Source of the DNA: Zhihengliuella flava
GTDB lineage: Bacteria > Actinomycetota > Actinomycetes > Actinomycetales > Micrococcaceae
Length of the DNA stretch: 64,000 nucleotides
Direction of reading: 5' to 3'
NCBI RefSeq assembly: GCF_015751895.1
Contig: NZ_JADOTZ010000001.1
Coordinates: 558,001 to 622,000, forward strand
This document shows positions 9,520-14,016 of the stretch, piece by piece. Position numbers and translations under genes: made by a program. Below the pieces are notes generated by a model that had not been told where the DNA came from, ran no database searches, and saw only the letters and a list, made by a program, of their open reading frames with translations. Position 1 is the stretch's first letter; every line of letters starts with the position of its first letter.

Positions 9520-10416
9520 TTACTCGGCCGGTTCGACGACGCCGGCGTCCCGCTGAGCGTGTGAGCCTGCACGGTGCGCCCGAGCCGAAGCATACAGGCA
9601 GACCGTGGCAGCCGTCCCGACATTGAGCGACTCGGCGACCCCGTACAACGGCACCGCAACGCGTCGATCTGCCGCGGCGAGCTCGGCCTCCATCAAACCC
9701 GCACCTTCATTGCCGAAGAGCCACATCGTGGGTTGGCCGAGCAGCGGTTGTCCGCGCCCGGAGGCTCGATGGGCCGCGGCCTCGTCTTGCAAGTCGTCGA
9801 GATCTGCGTCCCCGTACCCGTCGGCCGCGAGCAGTGTGAGCCCGGCAGAGCGCGCACCCTGCACGAGGTGCGCGAAGTCAATACCGACGACGATTGGAAG
9901 GTGAAAGATCGATCCGACGGTTGATCTGACCGCCTTGGGATTGAAAACGTCCACGCTGCCATTCGTGGTGATCACGGCGTCAGCCCCCGCCGCGTCAGCG
10001 GCCCGCAGAATGGTGCCGGCGTTGCCCGGGTCCTGCACGCTACAGAGCACCGCGACCAGCCTCGGAGTCGCGCTCAATACTGACGTCAGGTCCACGTCGA
10101 CACGCTCGCACACCGCGATCATCCCCTGCGGTGTCACCGTGTCAGCCATGGCGCGAATGACCTCGGGCTCTGCCCACCGAATGGTGACGCCGGGCAACTC
10201 GTCCACGAGCTCCGGATACCGCTGCGCAGCAGCCGTCGTCGTATAAATACTGTGCACCACGGGTCCCCGACCCTCGGCACGGCGCGTCGTGTGGAGTTGG
10301 CGCGCCTCACGCACCGCCTGCGGCCCCTCAGCGAGAAATCGCCCCGCCTTGGCCCGGCCAGACCTCGTGCTCAGCCTCGCGATCTCTTTCACGCGCTCAG
10401 CTTTGGGATTGGCCAT
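9520..10416 (-). CDS. TrmH/SpoU family RNA 2'-O-methyltransferase
   Basis: This SPOUT-class enzyme methylates a ribose 2'-OH of rRNA or tRNA. I choose the ATG at 10416 (298 residues), because the product then opens MANPKAERVKEIARL, typical of the N-terminal substrate-binding region. The frame itself extends upstream to 10455. SPOUT motifs follow: VQDPGNAGTILRAADAAG (motif 1), WLFGNEGAG (motif 2) and SLNVGTAATVCLYA (motif 3, knotted SAM site). It lies downstream of rplT, separated by a strong hairpin at 10504-10541, so it probably has its own promoter in 10417-10503. The exact target nucleotide is unknown. Confidence 0.92.
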   Translation of the reverse strand: MANPKAERVKEIARLSTRSGRAKAGRFLAEGPQAVREARQLHTTRRAEGRGPVVHSIYTTTAAAQRYPELVDELPGVTIRWAEPEVIRAMADTVTPQGMIAVCERVDVDLTSVLSATPRLVAVLCSVQDPGNAGTILRAADAAGADAVITTNGSVDVFNPKAVRSTVGSIFHLPIVVGIDFAHLVQGARSAGLTLLAADGYGDADLDDLQDEAAAHRASGRGQPLLGQPTMWLFGNEGAGLMEAELAAADRRVAVPLYGVAESLNVGTAATVCLYASARAHRAGSHAQRDAGVVEPAE

Positions 10417-10503
10417 CAGTGGTTCGCGGCTCTGGGCGTCCTTCATGGAGTTCACCTTATCTTCAGCGGCCTCGCGTGGGGTCCGCTCAGGGCAGTAGAC
10501 ACG

Positions 10504-10541
10504 ACGTAGGGGACGGAACCTCTTGGTTCCGTCCCCTACGT
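10504..10541. terminator. intrinsic terminator after rplT
   Basis: A perfect 17-bp stem (ACGTAGGGGACGGAACC pairing with its complement) has a four-base TCTT loop. It lies 35 nt past the rplT stop in the direction of minus-strand transcription. Two smaller hairpins follow the stop codon directly (10544-10558 and 10559-10575). No long T run is present, as is common in actinobacteria. Confidence 0.8.
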
Positions 10542-10575
10542 CAAGCCCTCTCAGGGCTCTCAGGCAGAGCCTGAG

Positions 10576-11220
10576 TTACTTCATCTGCTGGCGGGACTCG
10601 CCGCCTGCCGGCTCGAAGCCAGCGGCCTTTGCGGCCTCGATGGAGTTGAACCACCACTCGGCGGTGGTCTGCTCGTACCAGGTGGAGCCCGGCACGTGGT
10701 ACTTCTTGGACTGGTTGCCCTTGATCACGAAGCCCTCCGGGGCGTCCTCGCCCTCGACTGCCTTCACGGCGCCCTCAGTGGCGTCGGCCGACGGCGCAGC
10801 CTTCGCGGCGGCCGGAGCAGCCTTGGGTGCCGGAGCAACCTGAGCTGCAGGAGCGTTGACGTCTGCCGGAAGCGCGTCCTTAGCAACCTTGACCAGCGTG
10901 GCAAAGGCGTTGGCGTCGGAGACGGCCAGCTCTGCCAGCATGCGGCGGTCCACCTCGACCTCGGCGGCCTTCAGGCCCTGGATCAGGCGGTTGTAGGTGA
11001 GGCCGTTGGCGCGGGACGCAGCGTTGATGCGCTGGATCCACAGGCGACGGAAGTCACCCTTACGCTTGCGGCGGTCGCCGTAGCTGTAAACGAACGAGTG
11101 GAGCAGCTGCTCCTTGGCCTTGCGGTAGAGACGCGAACGCTGACCACGGTAGCCCTTGGCGCGCTCGAGGACGACCCGGCGCTTCTTGTGGGCGTTGACC
11201 GCCCGCTTCACACGTGCCAC
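10576..11220 (-). CDS. rplT: 50S ribosomal protein L20 with C-terminal extra domain
   Basis: Residues 1-118 are a standard bacterial L20 ([15 protein letters not shown]..., [15 protein letters not shown]), an early assembly protein that binds 23S rRNA. The usual length is about 118-130, but this protein has 214 residues. An Ala/Pro/Lys linker (about 119-150) leads to an acidic hinge and a compact segment (160-205) with the pattern [28 protein letters not shown] and [13 protein letters not shown]. The frame is open throughout, with no sign of a frameshift. The gene is third in infC-rpmI-rplT, 94 nt after rpmI. In many bacteria L20 represses this operon by binding its mRNA; whether that holds here is unknown. 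Confidence 0.96.
10606..10743 (-). other. C-terminal extra domain of L20 (sunset-like domain)
   Basis: This segment encodes residues 160-205 of the L20 protein. The pattern PEGF-x2-KGN, YHVPGS-x-WY and AEWWF...EAA-x-AAGF matches a short actinobacterial module that I recall being called a sunset domain. It often sits at the C-terminus of unrelated proteins. Function is unknown. The linker before it is flexible and Ala/Pro-rich, consistent with a tethered accessory module outside the ribosome core. The family name is from memory and should be confirmed by profile search. Confidence 0.6.
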
Positions 11221-11314
11221 GTGTGTACTCCTTTTGGTTGTGTCCCGTCATGACTCGGCAGCTGCCGGTGGGGGACGAGGTTTAATTCTTTGTGGTGCGA
11301 CCTAGCAGGTGGGC

Positions 11315-11509
11315 TTAGAGGCCCAGCATCCGCTTGATGGTCTTCACGTCAGCCTTGGCAACCAGCTGGTCGCTCGCCAGACGGCGGGTCAACCGGGAGG
11401 ACTTGTGCTCCAGGTAGTGGCGACGGTTGGCCTGCTGGCGCTTCAGCTTGCCGCTGCCGGTCAGCTTGAAGCGCTTCTTGGCACCACTGTGAGTCTTGAA
11501 CTTCGGCAT
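11315..11509 (-). CDS. rpmI: 50S ribosomal protein L35
   Basis: The 64-residue basic protein begins [15 protein letters not shown], the invariant N-terminus of bacterial L35, and ends MLGL. I place the start at the ATG at 11509 rather than the longer frame from 11539, because the family always starts with MPK and an AAGGAG lies 11 nt upstream. It is second in the operon, 178 nt after infC. That spacer contains a short GAGCC/GGCTC hairpin but no strong terminator. Confidence 0.97.
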
Positions 11510-11687
11510 GTCCGCCGTTCTCCTTACGTGCTCCCGCACCCAGACGGGCCGGGGATCTTCTGGGGCCTTCCGTCACCGGAGGACCTGTTGGTCTATCTGC
11601 ATCTGCGAGCCGCGAATGGCTCACCGATGCCCCATTCAAACTGTTGAACTGTCCGAGGCCTTCACGGCGCGAGGGCCAAACGGCCAG

Positions 11688-12371
11688 CTACGCCTCAGAG
11701 CCCTTGGCCTGCTCGAGCTTCGCCTTAGCCTCGTCCGAGAGGTTGTCGCCGAGAGACTGATTCATCTCTTCCGACGGACCGTCCGTGTCGACCCGCTGCT
11801 TCTTGCCGCGGCCACGGGACTGCTCCTTCTGAGCCCGGCGGTTCTCAGCCTTGGCTTCCGCCTTAGTCTTGACCGGACCGATGACCATGACCATGTTGCG
11901 CCCGTCAATCCGCGGTGCCGATTCGACGATGCCAACCTCGGCGACGTCTTCTGCAAACTTCTCCAGCAAACGGATGCCAAGCTCGGGACGCTGCTGCTCG
12001 CGGCCCCGGAACTGAATGATGGCCTTGACCTTGTCGCCGGCGCCCAAGAATCGGCGTGCGTGACCGGTCTTGGTCTCGTAGTCATGCGTGTCGATCTTCA
12101 GGCGGAAGCGAACTTCCTTCAGAACCGTGTTGGTCTGGTTCTTCCGGGATTCGCGAGCCTTCACGGCGGCCTCGTACTTGAACTTGCCGAAGTCCATCAG
12201 CTTGCACACCGGCGGCTTGGCGTTCGGGGCAACCTCAACGAGGTCAAGGTCCGCTTCGCCAGCTAGGCGCAATGCGTCATCGGTTGGGACAACGCCCACC
12301 TGCTCGCCGTTCGGTCCAACCAACCGCACCTCGGGGACGCGGATTCGCTCGTTAATGCGTGGATCGCTGAT
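11688..12371 (-). CDS. infC: translation initiation factor IF-3, ATC start
   Basis: IF-3 binds the 30S subunit and proofreads start-codon and initiator-tRNA selection. The family alignment starts at [19 protein letters not shown], and the codon for the first residue is ATC at 12371-12369, preceded by AGGAG at a 6-nt spacing. No ATG, GTG or TTG fits in that place. Non-standard starts in infC are known from other bacteria (AUU in E. coli) and let IF-3 repress its own synthesis. From this start the protein has 227 residues: N domain 1-75, linker, C domain about 80-170, and a charged C-terminal tail of about 50 residues. It leads the infC-rpmI-rplT operon. Confidence 0.93.
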
Positions 12372-12590
12372 GTGTAGCTCCTGCTTCTTCGTGTACGGGG
12401 CACCGCCCACACATGGAAAAGGCCTCCATCTGCGGAGCAGGTGGAGGCCAACGTTTCGGCTTCCCACGCGTGGGAAAGCTGACTACATGAGTAGTCGATC
12501 CGAACGACCCGGCAGCCTGAGGCGGCTACAGCGGGTGGGAGTTGGTCTCCACTTGCATCCTTGAATCATTCATCTGACGATGCCGTGGCG
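12372..12590 (-). promoter_or_regulatory. infC leader with possible attenuator and alternative pairing
   Basis: The 286-nt gap between infC and the divergent DUF1844 gene contains a long structured leader on the minus strand. It includes the palindrome TTCCCACGCGTGGGAA (12461-12476) and a terminator-like hairpin (12417-12449). GTGGAGACC (minus strand, 12552-12544) could pair 8 of 9 bases with the 5' arm of that hairpin and act as an antiterminator. A 15-codon open frame beginning ATGAATGATTC (MNDSRMQ...) lies in the upstream part on the same strand. Only the pairing potential is seen; regulation is inferred. Confidence 0.45.
12417..12449 (-). terminator. infC: terminator-like hairpin inside infC leader
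   Basis: Read on the minus strand, a 13-bp stem with one mismatch (GGCCTCCACCTGC with GCAGATGGAGGCC) and a three-base loop is followed directly by TTTT. It lies 45 nt before the infC start codon. The form is that of an intrinsic terminator located in a 5' leader, hence a candidate attenuator. Confidence 0.6.
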
Positions 12591-12657
12591 AAACTTTGAG
12601 GCTTCTCACGTACCGCCGACTCCATGATCCAAGTCGGTCTATGAAAAGCTTAGCAGT

Positions 12658-13038
12658 ATGAACACCTCTGAAACCAATCCGGCCGGCTCCCACCGCCATT
12701 CCATGACTGAAGAGTCCGCCGCCCGCGATATCGCGGAAGTGCCTGCAGTTGAAGTCATCACGACCGCTGCCGTGCACCTGATGAGCGCGGCCGCCGTGAA
12801 ATGCGGCCTGGCTGACGGCGACGATGCCGAGGAGCTCAAGGACCTCGACGAGGCCCGCAAACTCATCACGGCACTGGCCGGCCTCATCACCGCTGGGGCA
12901 CCCGAGATCGGCAGTCAGCATGCCACTCCCCTGCGCGACGGGCTGCGCTCGCTGCAGCTCGCGTTCCGTGAGGCCTCCATTATTCAAGATGAGCCGGGCA
13001 AGGGGCCGGGCGAGAAATACACGGGCCCCGTCTCCTAG
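12658..13038 (+). CDS. DUF1844 domain-containing protein
   Basis: The 126-residue acidic protein contains the DUF1844 core at about residues 24-80 (RDIAEVPAVEVITTAAVHLMSAAAVKCGLA). This family is widespread in actinobacteria and has no established function. There are no signal peptide or membrane helices beyond moderate hydrophobicity in that core. It is divergent from infC. The ATG at 12658 has only a weak AAAAG upstream, and a TATGAA about 14 nt before it could make the message nearly leaderless. A hairpin at 13070-13101 probably ends the transcript. Confidence 0.85.
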   Translation: MNTSETNPAGSHRHSMTEESAARDIAEVPAVEVITTAAVHLMSAAAVKCGLADGDDAEELKDLDEARKLITALAGLITAGAPEIGSQHATPLRDGLRSLQLAFREASIIQDEPGKGPGEKYTGPVS

Positions 13039-13069
13039 CGAGCGCTCCCAGCGCAGCCCGGACAACCGT

Positions 13070-13101
13070 GCGGCTCCCCATTCTGCCGAGTGGGGAGCCG
13101 C
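13070..13101. terminator. bidirectional terminator hairpin
   Basis: An 11-bp perfect stem (GCGGCTCCCCA with its complement) with a 10-nt loop lies 32 nt past the DUF1844 stop. It also lies just beyond the end of the convergent SseB-family gene. No T tract follows. Confidence 0.65.
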
Positions 13102-13125
13102 CGGCGTGTCCGCGGGGCCCGATCC

Positions 13126-14016
13126 CTATGAGGCCGGCAACGATTCGAGCCGGATCTCCAATGAGTCGACGGCTTCTGCGAAAGCCCGGGTCGTGGACAA
13201 GTGCTGCTGCAGACGCGCGACGATTCCCCGTGCCTCATCACTACCAGTCTGGGCTTTAAACTGCGCGGTCAATCGCAGTTCTGGGCCGTGCCCACCGCCA
13301 GGCACGACCGTTCCGGAACGATCCCGAGTCGCGACCCCTGACCCAGGCGACAGCGCAACACGAACAAGGTTCGGCTCCTTCTCGACAAAGTGGAGGACAT
13401 GACCAGTGAGCGCCTCATCGCGGTAGCTCGGCGTCCACTCGCGCTGCTGGGCCAACGCCCACATGGCGGGACGACGCACCACAAAAGTCACCTCAGCCCC
13501 GGGGTCCACGACGAGCAGCTCCGCCTTCTCCTGCACTGCCGACAAGGCCGCCCGCGGCGCAAAGACGGCCACGGGGCGGGCTTCAGGATGCCAATTTTGC
13601 AGGGTGCCAACGGAGGTGAAGACTGGCAATGCCATCCGGCCGTCTGGCGCCTTGAGCGTGACGAGAGCCATGTCGGCTTCTTTGTCCGCGGCGACACCAT
13701 GCTCGCCCTCGACCGTCTCGGCGGCCGTGGCGACCACGGGGACAAAGACACGAGCCGTTGAAAGCGCACGGATGATGTCTTCCTCGGCGCCCGACCGCTG
13801 CCGCAAGGCCGTCATGGCCTCGGCGTAAGCGGTGTCAACTGATCCGTCGTCGCCGTCGAACTGGTGCAGGGGGTTGCCCTCACCGGCCAAGTCGCGCCCC
13901 TGCCACGTTTGACCGGCCGAGTCCCCGTCTCCCCCAGCACCCGCTAGCGCTGCGGCGATGTGTCCCGGAAGGCTACGCCCTCCCCCAGCCGCCGGCCCCT
14001 GGTCTTTCTCGTCCAT
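13126..14016 (-). CDS. SseB family protein
   Basis: The 296-residue protein contains an SseB N-terminal-type region (about 85-205: VFVPVVATA, ALVTLKAPDGRMALPVFTSVGTLQNW, ALSAVQEKAELLVVDPG). In actinobacteria such proteins are free-standing and of unknown role; the name comes from a type III secretion factor that is not otherwise present here. The first 45 residues are Gly/Ala-rich and disordered. It follows priA without any gap (stop and start adjacent), so it is probably the last gene of the his block. The C-terminal third looks like a second, weaker domain. Confidence 0.82.
   Translation of the reverse strand: MDEKDQGPAAGGGRSLPGHIAAALAGAGGDGDSAGQTWQGRDLAGEGNPLHQFDGDDGSVDTAYAEAMTALRQRSGAEEDIIRALSTARVFVPVVATAAETVEGEHGVAADKEADMALVTLKAPDGRMALPVFTSVGTLQNWHPEARPVAVFAPRAALSAVQEKAELLVVDPGAEVTFVVRRPAMWALAQQREWTPSYRDEALTGHVLHFVEKEPNLVRVALSPGSGVATRDRSGTVVPGGGHGPELRLTAQFKAQTGSDEARGIVARLQQHLSTTRAFAEAVDSLEIRLESLPAS

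Follow-up and report, generated by a model that had tools for sequence, protein, structure and literature searches.

A sunset domain on ribosomal protein L20 of Zhihengliuella flava and its occurrence on other actinobacterial proteins

The rplT gene of Zhihengliuella flava encodes, in one open frame, what its sequence marks as an ordinary bacterial L20 (residues 1-118), followed by a linker and a sunset domain. Although the fusion is already catalogued in NCBIfam, several other carriers of the domain matched no dedicated NCBIfam variant, and its spread over many carriers is the less known part of its biology. The domain on L20 is under purifying selection and, in the genomes sampled, the L20 fusion appears from profile matches to be limited to part of the Micrococcaceae and one distant genus.

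The rplT gene and its C-terminal module

The stretch of 64,000 nucleotides analysed here (the window) contains, on the minus strand, an L20 frame of 214 residues that opens with a GTG at 11220, closes with the TAA at 10576-10578 and is uninterrupted in the list of open reading frames and their translations. An earlier note, made from the letters alone, had described just such an L20 with an extra C-terminal part, and the interval to which it drew attention, 10576-10866, corresponds to residues 119-214 plus the stop codon. The features of the gene and its surroundings are as follows.

10867..11220, minus strand: L20 core (rplT), residues 1-118 (PF00453 at residues 3-109, E 9.9e-41; TIGR01032 at residues 1-114)
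10735..10866, minus strand: Ala/Pro-rich linker, residues 119-162, variable in length and sequence
10579..10734, minus strand: sunset module, residues 163-214, with the profile match at 166-206 (NF051437, 62.8 bits, cut-off 27)
10576..10578, minus strand: rplT stop codon TAA
11315..11539, minus strand: rpmI (ribosomal protein L35), 5' of rplT, from the list of open reading frames and named by eye
11688..12467, minus strand: infC (initiation factor IF3), start codon uncertain, from the same list and named by eye
10502..10543, minus strand: 19-pair hairpin, about 33 bases 3' of the rplT stop (fold of -59.5 kcal/mol for 10495-10580, z -9.7)

The core scored 138.6 bits against PF00453 in a Pfam search of the window protein, and the order infC-rpmI-rplT, its neighbours recognised by eye from the list, is presumably the usual one here. 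It is possible that the hairpin marks the end of the rplT transcript; it lacks a T-run and is absent from the terminator-like sites, the scan for which demands one, and its 12-base core has no second copy in the window with up to one mismatch allowed. A search of 10000-14000 against Rfam for an RNA leader of L20 gave no match with E allowed up to 0.1.

In an NCBIfam search the window protein proved to be a member of NF051450 ('50S ribosomal protein L20, sunset domain variant'), with no difference of note: it reached 429.1 bits (cut-off 375, E 4.6e-129), residues 1-214 being matched to positions 1-219 of the model; the entry for this family assigns it no function. The general sunset model, NF051437, scored higher on the module alone (66.3 bits) than in the whole protein (E 2.2e-17). 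These matches bear out the sunset-like identity suggested in the earlier note, whose motif, KGN...YHVPGS.WY...AEWWF...AAGF, is indeed present in the window L20. Its description of the module as an orphan was too strong: NCBIfam curates this domain, with five of its named variants matched here, and it is probably akin to the metal-binding domain of Ada. The variants for L17, L4, S2 and ArfC (NF051448, NF051449, NF051451 and NF051433), which matched below their cut-offs over about residues 98-206, linker included, have the C-terminal domain in common with the window L20 but differ in the protein that carries it. NF011109 (L20/unknown domain fusion) is likewise an L20 with an extra part, but it matched through residues 1-118 only (122 bits, cut-off 187). 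The module has no Pfam match and, in translation, no Cys. In the openly licensed literature of PubMed Central we found nothing on the domain as 'sunset domain' or NF051437, and nothing on the L17 extension or on MALDI of Arthrobacter.

Distribution and history of the fusions

L20 was found in all of 100 sampled Micrococcaceae genomes, and it carries a sunset domain in 32 of them, in 12 of 31 genera; a short L20 in all related genera, named in the earlier note as the finding that would count against it, is thus not what is seen. In 11 of these 12 genera every sampled genome has the fusion (two of the genera being represented by a single genome each), and in the twelfth, g10, it is present in one genome of four. 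Within g10, the L20 proteins of loci L264-L267 end in a Lys/Ala/Pro-rich tail without the domain, and L269 and L270 have it. Decay of a sunset domain in this genus was considered and rejected: the profile matches in G009 and G538 crossed stop codons, and the loci show no remnant, only the Lys/Ala/Pro-rich tail. Across the order, 7 of 248 genomes passed the NF051450 cut-off, all of them Micrococcaceae. A contig labelled Stenotrophomonas maltophilia (JACEFY010000097.1, L047) encodes an L20 79% identical to that of the window, perhaps through contamination.

For 38 within-genus pairs, dN/dS was 0.094 in the core, 0.233 in the linker and 0.159 in the sunset domain, and among the 32 Micrococcaceae proteins mean pairwise identity was 0.80 over residues 159-206 vs 0.54 over 119-158, the linker ranging from 38 to 67 residues (median 51). 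Nothing was found to suggest that a frameshift or a sequencing artefact had run L20 together with the DNA downstream, and the idea is refuted by the 32 genomes with the fusion, the existence of an NCBIfam model and the purifying selection on the module; because the fusion recurs across genera and dN/dS is low, we give a frame or assembly error virtually no credence.

The domain has many other carriers. Profiles built for this analysis classified 238 loci from family, phylum and order samples into 49 on L17, 33 on L20, 25 on L4, two on L22 and 129 others, three of which (L230, L231 and L233) are Ada-type and not sunset. The classification omits G392; G554:C1:2365491, G600:C34, G578, a weak G466 match at 242356 and G527:C14; both G558 matches (the L20 of G558 was read separately); and L232, which the profile built for this analysis did not match. 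At least one sunset match is present in 71 of the 100 Micrococcaceae genomes. The carrier there is L20 in 32, L17 in 18 and L4 in five (G026 has both L17 and L4), so that, by the sunset model, the domain is on a ribosomal protein in 54 genomes and on none in 46; from the latter it follows that whatever the domain does on the ribosome is dispensable. In other families of the order the carriers are L17 and L4.

The earlier note had also supposed that the module occurs on unrelated proteins, and this too held: beyond further ribosomal proteins, it is found on NusA, NuoE, NuoC and membrane-anchored proteins. Among the 129 others we recognised by eye two loci with S16, two with NuoE, one with NuoC and one with NusA, one example of each being confirmed by Pfam; most of the remainder are, to judge by appearance, membrane-anchored or secreted. 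The fusions are at L210/L363 (G196) for NusA, L248 and L283 (G512 and G609) for NuoE, L227 and L369 (G183 and G636) for NuoC, and L255 and L297 (G501 and G512) for S16. The NusA, NuoE, S16 and L22 forms (L118 being the L22 form tried) pass the general sunset cut-off and that of no NCBIfam sunset variant. Of 31 genomes from the distant family of G196, a sunset match occurs in 14; the carriers, named partly by eye, are L22 in ten (loci L115, L118, L341, L342, L344, L345, L346, L347, L348 and L364), L4 in G619, G623 and G196, S2 in G619 and NusA in G196. The family of G183 has matches in two of 31 genomes, both on a NuoC-like protein (by eye). G183 has a clear L20 fusion as well, scoring 203.6 on NF051450, below the cut-off, and passing that of the ArfC variant (103.5 vs 100); a further fragment in G636 begins at a contig end, with its carrier out of sight.

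In 235 of the 238 loci, 20 residues or fewer follow the domain, and the secreted-looking relatives are likewise terminal; on ribosomal carriers a low-complexity linker precedes it. Tandem copies occur in G018, G373 and G619. A strict rule of one carrier per genome was considered and fails, with L17 and L4 together in eight genomes and L22, L4 and NusA in G196. The 33 genomes with a sunset-L20 have no other ribosomal carrier among the classified loci, and at the level of Micrococcaceae genera the exclusion is weak (12 and 6 of 31, overlap 0, P 0.037, uncorrected for kinship).

The history of the domain was followed in a tree built from 158 domains of the Cys-less class, in which many forks are unresolved, there being only 61 columns. 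All 31 distinct Micrococcaceae L20 domains group together (support 100/99), consistent with a single gain on L20 within the family, and the G183 L20 domain stands apart from it. Since the G183 fusion both falls below the NF051450 cut-off and is separate in the tree, it seems that L20 gained the domain twice. The tree requires 12 changes for L17 outside Micrococcaceae and eight for L4. In certain genomes two carriers have domains more like each other than like those of relatives: in G466 the L4 and L17 domains are 93% alike (best same-carrier relatives, 76 and 73%), in G501 those of S16 and L17 are 89% alike (55 and 82%), and in G594 those of L4 and L17 are 86% alike, against 60% to one L17 relative, there being no L4 relative. 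In G573, G489, G508 and G512, on the other hand, the L4 and L17 domains each resemble the domain of the same carrier in relatives more than they do one another, and G026, G582 and G196 show a mixed pattern. These comparisons point to copying between ribosomal protein genes within some genomes, though not as the rule.

Relatives and structure of the domain

Two forms of the domain differ in Cys content. A Cys before F or Y defines our class 'Cys' (77 domains), and only its pairing with a second, upstream Cys is informative; 74 of the 77 have that Cys just upstream. None of the 109 domains on L4, L17, L20 and L22 has either Cys, and at the other non-ribosomal loci the upstream Cys is present in four of 52, at least one of which (L228) has the second Cys one place later. 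The Cys form, for which a disulfide would be the natural inference, sits on secreted-looking or membrane proteins, thermonucleases among them. In 17 hand-picked domains from many carriers, secreted forms included, polar K, N, H, T and E are invariant or nearly so.

The Cys of the Ada domain bind zinc. A profile comparison by hhalign of the 17 sunset sequences with four Ada-type sequences gave a probability of 97.3% over 40 columns (E 1.8e-11), a result favoured by the choice of those four, which had been picked because the sunset model already found them weakly; the one checked against PF02805 (Ada_Zn_binding) was confirmed (E 4.7e-13). Where the Ada-type sequences have two invariant Cys, C18 and C46 (A2), the aligned sunset positions are S and A, and C49 lies beyond the aligned part. 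The window domain itself had no match to PF02805 up to E 10, in a search whose HMMER filters drop most weak matches. Thus there is a likeness between the Ada zinc-binding domain and sunset, but the Ada Cys are missing from the latter, which is likely to be a metal-less relative of the Ada domain and not a member of it.

A structural parallel is with Cutibacterium acnes (C. acnes), in which uL4 has a C-terminal sunset domain (E 2.8e-11; PDB 8crx and five further entries), on a 50S protein as in the window but on a different one. In the accessible part of one account of the C. acnes ribosome, the extension of uL4 is described as solvent-exposed, without density and likely to be disordered, and the C-terminal extension of uL22 as likewise solvent-exposed (PMC10085706); the accessible part of another (PMC13392368) holds nothing on the extension. 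A point of caution for structural work is that extensions of ribosomal proteins without cryo-EM density may hold conserved domains. AF2 models of the module and of the whole window protein, with five sequences in the alignment, were of low confidence, with a mean pLDDT of 57 and 55.5, respectively; in the whole-protein model, which is poor throughout, pLDDT was mostly below 50 in the linker. With the poor model of the module as the query, Foldseek returned five hits, all with E above 0.001.

Possible function and origin of the tethered domain

The earlier note suggested that the module on L20 could recruit a partner, and this is plausible. Because the carriers share little beyond membership in large cytoplasmic or membrane-bound machines, it is most economical to regard the tethered domain as a docking module for a shared putative partner, an idea that we prefer tentatively and at rather less than an even chance. 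The sunset domain would then fold independently, as a metal-free descendant of an Ada-type domain; that of L20 would hang on a flexible arm at the solvent face of the 50S, as for uL4 of C. acnes, and would allow ribosomes to bind a cytoplasmic partner that the carriers share. Conserved between lineages would be the tagging of a large cytoplasmic machine, and not the identity of the carrier. L20 is the one sunset match that the window genome yields with E as high as 10 allowed, which leaves no second sunset protein to serve as the partner there, unless one ribosome were to pair with another. Counting for docking are the conservation of the domain while the linker is not conserved, the difference of carriers between lineages, the likeness between two carriers within G466, G501 and G594, the near-invariant polar residues and the solvent-exposed uL4 extension of C. 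acnes; counting against it are the pattern in G573, G489, G508 and G512, the 46 Micrococcaceae genomes without a ribosomal carrier and the poor structure models. Such carriers as NusA, NuoE, NuoC and membrane-anchored proteins argue against a role on the ribosome alone, and the many non-ribosomal carriers make a ribosome-specific docking less likely. A wider form of the idea, which we think rather unlikely, is that of a portable cytoplasmic tag. Actinobacterial lineages would have attached it separately to six or more ribosomal proteins (L4, L17, L20, L22, S2 and S16) as well as to NusA, subunits of complex I and membrane-anchored proteins, and through it the ribosome, RNA polymerase, the respiratory complex and the membrane might all meet one common putative receptor.

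The main rival is a compact terminal knob that, with no specific partner, would guard the disordered tail and its carrier from C-terminal proteases, or limit non-specific contacts. This is possible, though on balance we doubt it: the almost invariably terminal position of the domain, in secreted-looking relatives too, and the low-complexity linker before it on ribosomal carriers are as such a cap would have them, but it needs neither near-invariant polar residues common to the carriers nor tandem copies, and 46 of 100 Micrococcaceae genomes manage without the domain on any ribosomal protein. It is improbable, in our view, that the extension is a neutral-to-acidic helper which keeps basic, early-binding ribosomal proteins soluble or aids their loading onto nascent rRNA. 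L4, L20 and L22 are early binders in 50S assembly, and in the window L20 the balance of K+R to D+E goes from 30 vs 10 in the core to 3 vs 5 in the linker and 6 vs 7 in sunset plus tail; however, S2, NuoE, NuoC and membrane-anchored carriers fit this poorly, and the net charge of the linker varies from -6 to +3 among the 32 Micrococcaceae L20s.

Patchy presence, and the signs of copying within G466, G501 and G594, would suit a neutral or selfish passenger, moved between ribosomal protein genes by recombination and tolerated at a free C-terminus, but the selection on the module (dN/dS 0.159) and the constancy of the fusion in 11 of the 12 genera make this improbable. Least credible among the functional proposals is that the module binds nucleic acid, as a legacy of the Ada domain, and so makes an extra contact with rRNA, mRNA or DNA; we rate it very unlikely. 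The profile likeness to Ada-type sequences, kin of the domain on nucleases and the association of NusA and ribosomal proteins with RNA would agree with it, but the module has no positive excess, the Cys have been lost, and NuoE and NuoC are not RNA proteins. As to docking on a shared partner, the sunset domains of L20, L17, L4, L22 and NusA would serve as easy bait for it, and carriers that vary by lineage on the same particle amount to a natural experiment, hinting that a tagged ribosome is useful.

For sunset-L20 as an anti-phage defence protein, PADLOC gave no family up to E 0.1. No case could be made for a phage origin of the domain: the 39 pattern matches in viral contigs included no relative. 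Phage records gave two weak matches, both to Bacillus phage G (E 0.04), and two PHROG families matched with E below 0.001. The phage G match at 444235 of JN638751.1 lies in gp605 (E 0.04), a 'membrane associated protein' in the RefSeq copy, and a PHROG family described in the same way matched the module with E 6e-5. Two records labelled 'plasmid', which are perhaps chromosome pieces or secondary chromosomes, also have matches: NZ_AP024648.1 (Arthrobacter sp. StoSoilB13) matches the sunset module at 1311340, and NZ_LR134464.1 (Tsukamurella tyrosinosolvens) has a sunset match at 210512 under a gene named rplQ.
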